A DNA stretch of 64,000 nucleotides from Caldanaerobius polysaccharolyticus DSM 13641 (lineage in GTDB: Bacteria > Bacillota > Thermoanaerobacteria > Thermoanaerobacterales > Caldanaerobiaceae). Below, piece by piece: positions 25,299-53,380 of this stretch; position 1 is the first letter of the stretch, and each line of letters opens with the position of its first letter. The DNA is taken from the NCBI RefSeq assembly GCF_000427425.1, contig NZ_KE386493.1, forward strand, positions 8,711 to 72,710. The letters run 5' to 3'. Under the pieces are notes generated by a model. It was given only the letters and a program-made list of their open reading frames with translations, did no database searches and was not told the origin of the DNA. Made by a program: the position numbers and the translations under genes.

Positions 25299-26657
25299 AT
25301 GAAAATAAAAGGTAAAAAGGTACTGGTGGTAGGCATGGCGAAGAGCGGCATTGCCGTTGCCAAGGTATTGTGTGGCCTGGGTGCCCATGTGATTGCAAAT
25401 GATGTCAAATCCCATGAAAAACTAGGAGAGTCGTTGAAGCCGCTGGAAGGTCTGGACATAGAATATCAACTGGGCAAACCAGCGGAGGAATTGGTGGACG
25501 ATGCGGACTTGATAGTGGTGAGCCCGGGGGTTCCTCTGGATCAGCCTTTTTACTACAGAGCCTTAGATTTGGGCAAGGAGTTAATCGGGGAGGTAGAACT
25601 GGCGTATAGGTTGAGCAGTTCGCCCTTTGTGGCTATAACGGGAACTAACGGAAAGACGACGACCACATCGTTGACTTACGAGATCTTCAAAACTGCGGGA
25701 GTTAAGGCTAGGTTGGCGGGTAATATAGGGTTTCCTATGATAGAGCAGGTGCTGGATGCCGGATGCGACACGGTTGTTGTTGCTGAAGTGAGTAGCTTTC
25801 AGTTAGAGACAATTGACAGCTTCAGACCCAGGGTATCCGCAATACTTAATATAACGCCAGACCACTTAAACAGGCATAAGAGTTTTGAGAATTATGTAAA
25901 TGCAAAAGCGCGGGTATTTATGAATCAAAGAGATGGGGATTATGTGGTCTTAAACTACGACAACGATGTTACTAGAAGGCTGGCGGAAAAAGCCCCATGT
26001 GAGGTGGTATTTTTCAGCAGGAGTAGTATCCTGGGGAAAGGAGTATATGTCAAAGAAGATTGGATAGTGGAAAACATATACGGGGCAGAAAATAAGGTTA
26101 TTCCGGTAAAAGATGTGTATATCCCTGGAAAGCACAATCTGGAAAATGCGCTGGCAGCTTGCGCTGTGGCCAGGTTGTGGGGTATAGAAACCGAGGTTAT
26201 AGCTGATACGTTGAGGTCATTTAAAGGGGTGGAGCATCGTATCGAATACGTAGCTACCATCGATGGGGTAAGGTATTATAACGACTCCAAGGGAACTAAT
26301 ACGGATGCTGCCATAAAGGCCATTGAAGCGCTGGATTACCCTATTATCCTTATAGCAGGAGGGTATGATAAAGGAGAGGATTTTACACCTTTCGTCAGAT
26401 CTTTTAACGGGAAAGTAAAAGCGCTTATATTGATGGGAGTAACTGCTGACAGGATTGAAAAGTGTGCCAGGGAACAGAATTTTCACAACGTGTATAGGGC
26501 AGCGGACATGAGAGAGGCGGTAATGAAAGCAAAGAACTTGGCAAAGGAAGGATACGCGGTTTTGCTGTCACCTGCATGTGCCAGCTGGGACATGTACGAT
26601 AATTACGAACAAAGGGGGAAAATCTTTAAAGATGTTGTAATGTCATTAGGAGGATAA
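25299..26657 (+). CDS. murD: UDP-MurNAc-alanine--D-glutamate ligase MurD
   Basis: 452 residues. Adds D-glutamate to UDP-MurNAc-Ala. N-terminal Rossmann-like domain (VLVVGMAKSGIAVAKVL), ATP site ITGTNGKTTTT near 113-123, then NITPDHLNRH and the C-terminal motif YNDSKGTNTDA and LSPACASWDMY that binds the substrate. AGAAGGTG precedes ATG 25299. It is followed after 5 bases by the spoVE/ftsW gene. Confidence 0.96.
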   Translation: MKIKGKKVLVVGMAKSGIAVAKVLCGLGAHVIANDVKSHEKLGESLKPLEGLDIEYQLGKPAEELVDDADLIVVSPGVPLDQPFYYRALDLGKELIGEVELAYRLSSSPFVAITGTNGKTTTTSLTYEIFKTAGVKARLAGNIGFPMIEQVLDAGCDTVVVAEVSSFQLETIDSFRPRVSAILNITPDHLNRHKSFENYVNAKARVFMNQRDGDYVVLNYDNDVTRRLAEKAPCEVVFFSRSSILGKGVYVKEDWIVENIYGAENKVIPVKDVYIPGKHNLENALAACAVARLWGIETEVIADTLRSFKGVEHRIEYVATIDGVRYYNDSKGTNTDAAIKAIEALDYPIILIAGGYDKGEDFTPFVRSFNGKVKALILMGVTADRIEKCAREQNFHNVYRAADMREAVMKAKNLAKEGYAVLLSPACASWDMYDNYEQRGKIFKDVVMSLGG

Positions 26658-30918: not shown

Positions 30919-32010
30919 ATGATAGAGTTTGATGTGGATATGGAACAATTTGCACATATAAAAGTGATAGGGGTAGGGGGTGGAGGGAATAACGCTGTAA
31001 ACAGGATGATCTCCGAAGGGCTTAAAGGGGTTGAATTTATCGCGATTAACACAGATAAACAGGCTTTATACCTTTCAAAGGCAACCCATAAAATACAAAT
31101 AGGAGAAAAATTGACAAAAGGTCTTGGAGCAGGTGCTAATCCTGAAATAGGTCGAAAAGCCGCTGAGGAGAGCTCTGAGGAGATCTCACAAGCTATTAAA
31201 GGCGCCGATATGGTCTTTGTAACGGCTGGCATGGGAGGAGGTACTGGCACAGGTGCTGCTCCCATCGTGGCGCAGATAGCCAAGGAAATGGGGATACTCA
31301 CCGTAGGTGTGGTGACCAAACCCTTTACTTTTGAAGGCAGGAAGCGGATGAAGCACGCAGAAGAGGGAATAAACGCATTAAAGCAAAAAGTAGACACCTT
31401 GGTAACCATTCCTAATGATCGCCTGCTTCAAATCGTGGAAAAGAAAACCAGTATGATTGAGGCGTTTAAAATCGCTGACGATGTGTTGAGGCAAGGGGTG
31501 CAGGGTATTTCCGACTTGATAGCGGTGCCTGGTCTTGTAAATCTGGATTTTGCTGACGTGAAGACGATTATGATGGAAACAGGTTTGGCTCATATGGGCA
31601 TAGGTATAGCTAATGGGGAAAACAGGGCTAAAGAAGCTGCAAAGCAAGCTATACAGAGTCCTTTGCTAGAGACGTCTATAGAGGGAGCTAAAGGAGTTCT
31701 TCTGAATATCACAGGAGGAGCCAACTTAAGCCTTTTTGAGGTCAATGAGGCCGCTGAATTTATATATGAAGCCGCGGATCCTGACGCCAATATCATATTT
31801 GGTGCGGTGATAGACGAAAATCTACAGGACGAGATAAAGATAACCGTTATAGCTACAGGCTTTGAAAAGAAAGAGTCGGAAAATGTAAACAGAAAAGTAG
31901 AAAACCAGCAAGGCATTGCTAATAAGCAGAATGTGCATTTGGACATAGAAAACATAGATCTAGACAGACTAGACATACCCGCGTTTTTGAGAACTCATAA
32001 AAAAAGGTAA
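30919..32010 (+). CDS. ftsZ: Cell division GTPase FtsZ
   Basis: 363 residues. Polymerises into the Z-ring. GTP motifs: [12 protein letters not shown] (about 16-27) and [12 protein letters not shown] (about 104-115); the T7 loop NLDFADVK supplies the catalytic Asp. After a short linker the conserved C-terminal peptide [13 protein letters not shown] (for FtsA/SepF) ends the protein. GAGGAGAAAGGGG precedes ATG 30919. A strong terminator starts at its stop codon and closes the dcw cluster. Confidence 0.98.
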
Positions 32011-32042
32011 GCAGTTTGCGTAGGGAAACTGCTATTTTTTTT
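32010..32042 (+). terminator. Intrinsic terminator of the dcw cluster
   Basis: AGCAGTTT (32010-32017) pairs with AAACTGCT (32026-32033) around an 8-base loop, followed by ATTTTTTTT. It begins at the last base of the ftsZ stop. Confidence 0.9.
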
Positions 32043-32170: not shown

Positions 32171-33028
32171 ATGTACGCCGATGTGCTGTTTATGGAAAAT
32201 GTAATCTTAAATTACGTTATACTGTCGCTTACGGCGAGATGGGGTAAGTTTAGTTATAAATGGTACAAACTGTTATCAGCTTCTGCCGTGGGTTCGCTGT
32301 ACGCCGTGGTGATGTACTTACCCTCCATGAGCTTTATGCGAGGTTTTACGCCCAAGATACTGCTTTCCATGTTAATCATAGTTGTCGCTTTTACGCCATC
32401 AAGGCTTATCGATTTTTTTCGGCAAATGACTGTATTTTATATGATTACCTTTGCTTTTGGAGGATGCTCAATCGCCCTATACTACCTGGCAGGCAATAAC
32501 CAGGCGGTAGTCGATGGAGTGTATTATTCTATTGTAGGTGCGTTTTTCGCCGCTATAGTGGTTAAAGCAAGTTTAAACTATATAAATACTAAAATACACA
32601 AAGACAGGTTGAGCTTGATTCTGAAAATAGTGGTTGATGGAAAGTCCAATGAGATGACAGCGCTGGTGGACACAGGCAACAGCCTCTATGAGCCTTTGTC
32701 GCGCTGGCCTGTAGTGGTGGTGGAATTTAAGAGGGTAGAAAAGCTGTTACCCGAGAGCATAAAGGAATTATACCTAAAGGGGCTGGAAAAGGATTTGACT
32801 TCTCTTACTCTGGCATTGGCTGATACCGATTGGATGTCAAGGGTGAGGATCGTGCCTTTTTCTTCATTGGGCAGAGAAAACGGGGTGCTTTTAGGGTTTA
32901 AACCTGATAGCATTTTTATAAAGGGTCCTGAGGAAAAAGAGATAAAAAACGTGGTGGTGGCTATTTACAATAATACGCTGTCTAAAAACCAGGAGTACGG
33001 GGCACTTCTTCACCCTGATATATTATAG
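32171..33028 (+). CDS. spoIIGA: Sigma-E processing peptidase SpoIIGA
   Basis: 285 residues. The N-terminal half has five hydrophobic segments (to about 135); the C-terminal half is an aspartic-protease-like domain with ALVDTGNSLYEP, D167 being the catalytic residue. A dimer in the septal membrane cleaves pro-sigma-E in the mother cell, on a signal from the forespore. GGAGG lies 6 bases before ATG 32171. sigE, its substrate, starts 15 bases after the stop. Confidence 0.95.
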   Translation: MYADVLFMENVILNYVILSLTARWGKFSYKWYKLLSASAVGSLYAVVMYLPSMSFMRGFTPKILLSMLIIVVAFTPSRLIDFFRQMTVFYMITFAFGGCSIALYYLAGNNQAVVDGVYYSIVGAFFAAIVVKASLNYINTKIHKDRLSLILKIVVDGKSNEMTALVDTGNSLYEPLSRWPVVVVEFKRVEKLLPESIKELYLKGLEKDLTSLTLALADTDWMSRVRIVPFSSLGRENGVLLGFKPDSIFIKGPEEKEIKNVVVAIYNNTLSKNQEYGALLHPDIL

Positions 33029-33043
33029 CAGGAGGTATTTTTT

Positions 33044-33772
33044 ATGAAGAGCTGGTGCAAAATCAAATGGAGTGCGCGACTTTTTGTGATCAGGGTGCTG
33101 GAACGACTAAAAATAAGGGGAGAATCTGTATTCTACATAGGCGGCAGCGAAGCTCTTCCACCTCCCTTGAGTAGCGATGAAGAGGAATACCTCATGATGA
33201 AGTTGCAAAAAGGCGACAACACAGCGAGGACTGTTTTAATAGAACGCAATCTACGCCTTGTGGTATATATTGCTAGAAAATTTGAAAATACCGGAGTGGG
33301 AGTGGAAGACCTTATATCCATAGGTACTATAGGGCTTATCAAGGCTGTAAATACCTTTGATCCTTTTAAAAATATAAAATTGGCCACTTATGCTTCAAGG
33401 TGTATTGAGAATGAAATATTGATGTATCTCAGGAGGAATAATAAGACAAAAATGGAAGTATCTTTTGATGAGCCGTTAAACGTGGATTGGGATGGGAATG
33501 AATTGCTGCTATCAGATGTGTTGGGTACTGACAACGAGGTGGTTTCCAGGAACGTGGAAGAAGATGTGGATAGACAGCTATTGAATGTGGCGATAAAAAG
33601 GCTGTCGGATAGGGAAAAAAAGATTATAACGCTGAGGTTTGGCATTAACGGAGAAGTAGAGAGGACGCAAAAAGAGGTTGCAGATATGCTGGGTATATCG
33701 CAATCTTATATATCAAGGTTGGAAAAGCGCATAATAAAAAGGCTTAGAAAGGAAATGAATAAGATGGCATAA
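33044..33772 (+). CDS. sigE: Mother-cell sigma factor pro-sigma-E
   Basis: 242 residues. Region 2 ([30 protein letters not shown]...) and region 4 ([21 protein letters not shown]) are nearly those of B. subtilis sigma-E. The first about 28 residues are an amphipathic pro-sequence; by alignment SpoIIGA should cut just before [22 protein letters not shown] precedes ATG 33044. It shares the transcript of spoIIGA; sigG follows after a 62-base gap that contains the sigG control hairpin. Confidence 0.97.
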
Positions 33773-33786
33773 CGGGAATAAATAAG

Positions 33787-33827
33787 CCCTCCCAAGGCAA
33801 TAATTTTTTATAGATGAGACGGGAGGG
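33787..33827 (+). promoter_or_regulatory. Hairpin that can hide the sigG ribosome binding site
   Basis: CCCTCCC (33787-33793) is the exact complement of GGGAGGG (33821-33827), which is the sigG Shine-Dalgarno. Paired, the stem of 7 G/C-rich pairs with a 27-base loop would block translation. B. subtilis sigG has been reported to carry a comparable leader hairpin that tunes its translation. Confidence 0.65.
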
Positions 33828-33834
33828 AAACTAT

Positions 33835-34608
33835 ATGCTCAATAATAAAGTAGAGATATGCGGTGTTAACACGTCAAAACTTCCTGTGTTAAAGACCAGC
33901 GAGATGAAGGATTTGCTCATGAGGCTAAAAAACGGCGATAAAGAAGCCAGGGAAAAGTTTATATACGGCAATTTAAGGTTGGTGCTGAGCGTTATACAAA
34001 GGTTCAATAATAGAGGCGAACACGTAGATGACCTGTTTCAGGTGGGATGTATAGGCCTTATAAAAGCCATTGACAATTTTGACTTATCTCAGAACGTCAG
34101 GTTTTCTACTTATGCGGTGCCTATGATTATAGGAGAAATAAGGAGGTATCTGAGAGATAATAATTCCATAAGGGTGAGCAGGTCGTTAAGGGATATCGCT
34201 TACAGAGCACTACAGGCGAGAGATAAGCTCATCGCTGAAAACGGCAGAGAGCCTAATATTTCCGAGGTAGCTAAAGAATTAGATCTTCCCAGGGAAGAAG
34301 TCGTGTTTGCATTAGATGCCATTCAGGAACCTGTTTCCCTTTTTGAGCCCATATACCACGATGGCGGAGACGCCATTTACGTCATGGATCAGGTGGGCGA
34401 TAGCAAAAACAACGATGAGATGTGGCTGGAGAGCATATCTTTAAGTGAGGCTTTGAATAAATTAAACGAAAGGGAAAGGCATATACTCAACCTGAGGTTT
34501 TTTCAAGGTAAAACCCAGATGGAAGTAGCTGAAGAGATAGGGATATCTCAGGCGCAGGTATCTAGGTTGGAGAAATCCGCGCTAGCTCACCTGAGAAAGT
34601 ATATATAA
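33835..34608 (+). CDS. sigG: Forespore sigma factor sigma-G
   Basis: 257 residues, close to the 260 of B. subtilis. The start MLNNKVEICGVNTSKLPVLK matches the conserved sigma-G N-terminus, so ATG 33835 is the start and the open frame from 33814 is not. Region 2 (HVDDLFQVGCIGLIKAIDNFDL), region 3 and region 4 (GISQAQVSRLEKSALAHL) are intact. It directs late forespore genes. GGGAGGG lies 7 bases upstream and can be masked by the hairpin at 33787-33827. Read-through from spoIIGA-sigE would produce sigG mRNA early, which makes such a block sensible. Confidence 0.97.
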   Translation: MLNNKVEICGVNTSKLPVLKTSEMKDLLMRLKNGDKEAREKFIYGNLRLVLSVIQRFNNRGEHVDDLFQVGCIGLIKAIDNFDLSQNVRFSTYAVPMIIGEIRRYLRDNNSIRVSRSLRDIAYRALQARDKLIAENGREPNISEVAKELDLPREEVVFALDAIQEPVSLFEPIYHDGGDAIYVMDQVGDSKNNDEMWLESISLSEALNKLNERERHILNLRFFQGKTQMEVAEEIGISQAQVSRLEKSALAHLRKYI

Positions 34609-34649: not shown

Positions 34650-34922
34650 GTGGTAAGTACTACTGATCTGGCACAAAAAGAGGTTATAAATGTTGTGGAT
34701 GGCAGGCGATTGGGTTTTATAAGCGACATAGAAATAAATTTAGAAGAAGGGCGGGTAGAAGCCCTTATATTGCCAGGACAAGGAAAATTTTTGGGTATTT
34801 TTGGAAGAGAGAGCGAAAAGGTCATACCGTGGTCCCATGTTAAAAAAATAGGCCACGATGTGATATTGGTCCAGTATGAAGGTGTAGATATAATAGAAAA
34901 GGATAATGATTCAGAGCGTTAG
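34650..34922 (+). CDS. YlmC/YmxH-family PRC-barrel sporulation protein
   Basis: 90 residues of a PRC-barrel-like fold: VNVVDGRRLGFISDIEINLEEGRVEALILPG then VIPWSHVKKIGHDVILV. Small proteins of this family follow sigG in many clostridia and Bacillus (YlmC); function unknown. GTG 34650 has GGGGGGA 7 bases upstream; the ATG at 34646 is in another frame. Just upstream TGCTATAAT (34621-34629) could be an extended -10. The stop lies in the terminator hairpin. Confidence 0.85.
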   Translation: MVSTTDLAQKEVINVVDGRRLGFISDIEINLEEGRVEALILPGQGKFLGIFGRESEKVIPWSHVKKIGHDVILVQYEGVDIIEKDNDSER

Positions 34923-34943
34923 TTGTGCTTAGCACGACTTTTA
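34921..34943 (+). terminator. Terminator after the YlmC-like gene
   Basis: AGTTGTGC (34921-34928) pairs with GCACGACT (34932-34939; one G-U) around TTA, followed by TTTATT. It overlaps the stop codon. Confidence 0.7.
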
Positions 34944-53159: not shown

Positions 53160-53380
53160 TCAACGGCGATGAAGGAGAAGAGTAAGCTGTATTCGGCGCC
53201 TCAAGAGAAATGGCGGTAGGTGCGAGCCATTGCGGGGTATGGCTGAAAATCACTCCGGAGCTGAGGGCTGAAAAAAGAGTAAGCCTTTCCGGTTTTGCCG
53301 TTATTTCAGATGAGCGATCATTTTTATGGTAAAATGGGTGGTACCGCGAAACTTTCGCCCCAGGTGGCGAAAGTTTTTTT
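53160..53380 (+). promoter_or_regulatory. T-box riboswitch controlling ileS
   Basis: The T-box GGGTGGTACCGCG is at 53336-53348. It is followed by the terminator AACTTTCGCC (53350-53359) / GGCGAAAGTT (53366-53375) and a T-run. A k-turn-like GAAGAGTAAG lies near 53180. The candidate specifier is ATC (Ile) at 53249-53251, within the usual GAA-NNN-ACTCC context. Uncharged tRNA-Ile would favour the antiterminator, and charged tRNA would stop transcription before ileS. Confidence 0.9.

Follow-up and report, generated by a model that had tools for sequence, protein, structure and literature searches.

In Bacillus subtilis, read-through sigG RNA is made early and is not translated (PMC2530871). As related in PMC5942855, Masuda et al. 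proposed in 1988 that a hairpin of 20 or more pairs blocks translation of this RNA, and that hairpin cannot form in RNA made from the sigG promoter. Separately, Mearls et al. (2018) described a 5-pair leader hairpin at the ribosome-binding site (RBS) that lowers B. subtilis sigG translation 2–4-fold; the cross-species survey in that paper covers leader hairpins, not the read-through hairpin (PMC5942855). Among clostridia, C. acetobutylicum makes spoIIGA–sigE–sigG, spoIIGA–sigE and sigG transcripts (PMC2530871), and in C. difficile a SigF-type promoter has been mapped directly upstream of sigG (PMC3789822; PMC7438776). C. perfringens and C. acetobutylicum depend on sigma-F to produce sigma-G, whereas a C. 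difficile sigF mutant has sigma-G protein at wild-type level (PMC3738446).

Here we examine the sigG upstream region in a 64,000-nt stretch of the Caldanaerobius polysaccharolyticus DSM 13641 genome (the window). A preliminary description of this DNA had invoked a B. subtilis leader hairpin as precedent; the precedent is real and, going by its portrayal in PMC5942855, is the Masuda read-through hairpin, distinct from the small RBS hairpin tested in that paper. In that portrayal, the sigG Shine–Dalgarno sequence (SD) pairs with a segment that precedes the start of sigG transcription, and only RNA reading through from the spoIIG promoter forms the hairpin; by the predicted promoter, both would hold in the window too. 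The window has only 7 pairs, confined to the promoter spacer, compared with the 20 or more given there for B. subtilis; its sigE–sigG gap is 62 nt rather than about 139 nt, and it has an ATG start and a 15-nt spacer where B. subtilis has GTG and 14 nt. The Mearls hairpin likewise covers the sigG SD, but its 5′ arm lies at +10 to +15 of sigG-promoter RNA and is thus in every transcript, whereas the window arm (33787–33793) lies upstream of the expected start; the feature does not belong with leader RBS hairpins of that type. At Bacillaceae loci, the 5′ arm comprises the promoter spacer and part of the −10 element, a position matching that in the window; one such locus (L161) reads GCATA tttttcccacccaa GGAGATACTT ... 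gggagggaaaaaa GTG and forms 16 pairs. The window feature is a clostridial, shorter case of a known, little-studied device at the same place, and the covariation support is new: a read-through hairpin proposed for one species in 1988 is here followed by covariation over many families.

The sigG locus and its predicted promoter

The locus lies on the + strand and comprises spoIIGA, encoding the sigma-E processing peptidase (32171–33028; TIGR02854, 243.7 bits over cut-off), sigE (33044–33772; TIGR02835, 419 bits over cut-off) and sigG (33835–34608; TIGR02850, 494 bits), all three scoring above the curated cut-offs of their profiles. The unit is bordered upstream by a terminator-like + strand hairpin 3′ of ftsZ (32010–32033) and downstream by another 3′ of a YlmC/YmxH-family gene (34921–34939). 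Directly 3′ of spoIIGA–sigE comes sigG, and because a terminator scan found no + strand terminator between sigE and sigG, read-through from one into the other is expected. Comparison with a relative of the same genus (L002) supports the sigG start at ATG 33835; a longer N terminus from the in-frame ATG at 33814 was rejected, that ATG being out of frame in the relative.

The sigG SD, GGGAGGG (33821–33827, + strand), stands 7 nt ahead of the ATG, and the exact upstream complement that the preliminary description had reported, CCCTCCC (33787–33793, + strand), is confirmed, giving 7 exact pairs. The folding that it had called for yields precisely this helix: the 62 nt from 33776 to 33837 fold into CCCTCCC/GGGAGGG at −14.3 kcal/mol (z = −2.83; 1 of 200 shuffled sequences did as well), and a 141-nt fold retains the helix at a z of only −0.94, which is not unusual. 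When 36 nt upstream of each of the 55 called starts in the window were searched, two had a 7-nt exact complement, and only that of sigG covers the SD; the other start, at 25494, is not credible as a start. Rfam gave no match at the sigG upstream region. Taken alone, a single-sequence fold and an exact complement are weak evidence, suggestive only.

The arm sits within a predicted sigF/sigG-type promoter on the same strand. The consensus matches are a −35 element, GAATA (33776–33780), which begins 3 nt past the sigE stop codon (33770–33772), and a −10 element, GGCAATAATT (33796–33805), separated by the 15-nt spacer AATAAGCCCTCCCAA (33781–33795), which contains the anti-SD arm. Such an arrangement precedes sigG in 231 of 238 upstream regions, with a spacing of 14 or 15 in 229, and high promoter scores were obtained for 71–81% of family representatives versus 0.3–1.7% of shuffled sequences and 0–1% of the neighbouring 90 nt. 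From the distance to the −10, transcription from the sigG promoter would be expected to start at 33811–33814. Because the arm precedes this expected start site, CCCTCCC cannot, on the predicted promoter, be part of sigG-promoter RNA; it should be absent from that RNA and present in spoIIGA–sigE read-through RNA.

We consider it likely that the window organism has a translation lock on sigG governed by promoter choice. RNA starting upstream of spoIIGA and reading through sigE would carry CCCTCCC, whose pairing with the sigG SD would prevent sigG translation ahead of asymmetric division as well as in the mother cell. The forespore sigG promoter would surround CCCTCCC and use that segment as its −35/−10 spacer, so that its RNA would lack the segment and have an SD that is easier to open. 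One stretch of DNA would thus have two roles, promoter spacer and RNA anti-SD, and its position within the promoter would make for a simple rule, in which translation of a message depends on the promoter it came from. For the window organism we infer the start site, the read-through and the block of sigG translation; what the computation itself shows is the pairing, its location in the spacer of a consensus promoter, the lack of a terminator, covariation across families and enrichment where sigE abuts sigG. The earlier idea of a locked long RNA and an open short one is supported by the confirmed genes, the uninterrupted sigE–sigG junction and an arm upstream of the expected start.

Pairing across families

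We compared sigG upstream regions from the window's genome, 60 relatives, a sample of the phylum and 80 Bacillaceae. Within the window's genus the arms are CCTCCCG/CGGGAGG. In other groups they differ in sequence: CTGTCCCTC/GAGGGACAG and, with one G–U pair, CTGTTCCTC/GAGGGACAG in family f2; ATCCTGCC/GGCAGGAT in genus g5 of family f3; AAAACTTCCCCCTGT/ACAGGGGGAAGTTTT in f41; GGCTCCATTCCGTC/GACGGGGTGGAGCC in f8; and TTGCC/GGCAA, TTGCC/GGTAA and TTACC/GGTAA, at the foot of a longer stem, in f4. Both arms thus change from family to family in ways that preserve the pairing. The sister genus g3 (family f3) has no good spacer–SD pairing (L003, −7 to −8 kcal/mol). In f4, a family of the same class as the window (L047–L050, L257–L261), both sigG and its lock are kept, with matched changes in the arms; a close sigG is missing from genome G034 (best E = 2e-38).

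Across 72 spore-former families, each with one representative, the duplex of a spacer with its own SD region averaged −12.2 kcal/mol versus −9.8 kcal/mol with the SD regions of other families, and none of 20,000 permutations attained the own-pair mean; after correction for composition, the own pairs had z = −1.37 and the swapped pairs −0.65, again with 0 of 20,000 permutations. The excess persists when representatives are drawn at random, when pairing is restricted to the strict spacer, and when the Bacillaceae, f82 and the window's family are left out. Pairing as strong as −16 kcal/mol was found in 15 of 72 spacers, whereas of the control windows lying further upstream 22 of 792 reached it (p = 3e-8; the families are not fully independent, and p-values here serve as guides). 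The profile of strong pairing has a single peak, which falls on the spacer, with no other across 180 nt. A count by helix length (at least 8 pairs, G–U allowed) separates less well, with 16 of 72 spacers versus 10.8% of control windows. In a sigE control, pairing at the sigG spacer was stronger than that at sigE in 6 of 7 families (mean −17.3 versus −9.7 kcal/mol, p = 0.023), a number of families too small to carry weight. In f4 alone, taken as one genus-level set, covariation is modest: 93.5% of cells are paired (10 of 500 shuffles as high), and only 2 pairs have double changes (75 of 500 shuffles).

Matched changes in many families are a sign that selection maintains the read-through hairpin. 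Absence of pairing in relatives would have spoken against the preliminary description; instead, spacer–SD pairing is kept across families with changed sequences, in its favour. Its suggestion of a conserved control holds in so far as matched changes occur in many families, but the control is not universal: strong pairing is missing from g3 and from more than half of the families.

Opening costs and rival explanations

Accessibility computed from base-pair probabilities depends strongly on the length of coding sequence folded, giving 0.67 or 0.14 for the short RNA, and we therefore used opening energies instead. In the long RNA, folded to end points from 33850 to 33910, opening the window SD costs about 9–10 kcal/mol; in the short RNA it costs 3.4–4.9 kcal/mol for most fold lengths, and 3.4–4.2 kcal/mol when that RNA starts at 33812. 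The exception is the fold ending at 33890, in which the SD of the short RNA is as hard to open as that of the long RNA (8.7 kcal/mol) through pairing with CTTCCTG (33880–33886, + strand). Some folds of either RNA allow this segment, made up of Leu-Pro codons within sigG, to pair with the SD. At 60 °C the costs are 5.5–7 kcal/mol for the long RNA versus 1.1–1.9 kcal/mol for the short RNA (5.5 kcal/mol in the 33890 exception), and on these modelled values the lock should persist at thermophilic temperature. Early sigG codons, by pairing with the SD, may add a second, transcript-independent dampening that would act on the short mRNA as well. The encoded Leu-Pro peptide is conserved, so this brake may be general. 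Most locked relatives have similar differences between long and short RNA; in L002, L029 and L078 the difference shrinks or vanishes in folds that extend 57 nt into the coding sequence.

The spacer could be constrained as DNA, by promoter strength or a DNA-binding regulator, with the match to the SD a by-product of C-rich spacers and G-rich SDs. Part of the complementarity is indeed generic, as swapped pairs outpair shuffled ones (the mean z of −0.65 above), but own pairs exceed swapped pairs throughout the permutations and the arm sequences vary between families while the pairing is kept, and we regard this explanation as unlikely. A chance complement in the window's genome is barely credible: one other of the 55 called starts also has a 7-nt complement and the 141-nt fold is unremarkable, yet the same spacer position pairs, with altered sequences, in the same-genus relative, f2, g5 and f4.

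Other explanations grant the hairpin a role but not the discrimination between transcripts. It might be a constant damper on sigG translation whatever the transcript, much as the tested small RBS hairpin is in B. subtilis, for which a 2–4-fold dampening is on record (PMC5942855); pairing of the SD with early codons, also present in the window, would suit such a role. The window's 5′ arm, however, is upstream of the expected start and could not be in sigG-promoter RNA, which makes constant dampening a quite improbable account of this helix. That the hairpin is instead a terminator or processing site ending the sigE message, in keeping with its position 14 nt past the sigE stop and with the separate spoIIGA–sigE transcript of C. 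acetobutylicum (PMC2530871), is very unlikely: the loop is 27 nt long, the stem is followed by AAACTATATG rather than a T-run, and the scan reported no + strand terminator at the hairpin. It thus lacks the short loop and T-run of an intrinsic terminator.

Distribution and further observations

A pairing was scored as a lock when its z was at most −2 and it ranked within the strongest 5% of upstream controls, which holds for 18 of 72 families, about a quarter. The lock is concentrated where sigE lies close: 10 of the 19 families with the sigE stop within 95 nt of sigG have it versus 8 of 53 elsewhere (p = 0.002). Where a clear terminator precedes sigG, as in f11 and f27, the lock is absent; f22 has both a terminator and a lock. 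In f8 the lock is strong though the upstream gene is not recognisably sigE. This pattern of occurrence fits a device against read-through from whatever precedes sigG. Because many families and the sister genus g3 have no strong pairing, sigG can do without the lock. In one f8 locus (L035), a 14-pair complement with two G–U pairs joins the promoter spacer to the sigG SD, and the upstream gene resembles a membrane protein.

A wider reading, which we offer tentatively as somewhat short of an even prospect, is that the sigG spacer is doubly used across Bacillota, for promoter spacing in DNA and as an anti-SD in RNA, arising where read-through can reach sigG and disappearing where a terminator or a long gap stands in between; absence of the lock would then explain sigma-G without sigma-F in C. 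difficile versus C. acetobutylicum and C. perfringens (protein data, PMC3738446). The lock would in this way offer a reason for the differing dependence of sigma-G on sigma-F among spore-formers.

The survey also turned up an unusual sigG start. In two genomes of one genus (L249 and L253; genus g23 of family f19), the codon ahead of Asn-Lys-Val-Glu-Ile-Cys is ATC. Because this codon directly follows a stop, TAA, sigG seems to start there at AUC, a few nucleotides 3′ of a GGGGAAGGGG SD; other f19 genera have TTG as the sigG start. Such an unusual start codon, common to both species, would restrain sigG translation further. Elsewhere in the window, a T-box leader lies at 53160–53365 (Rfam RF00230, 139.5 bits).
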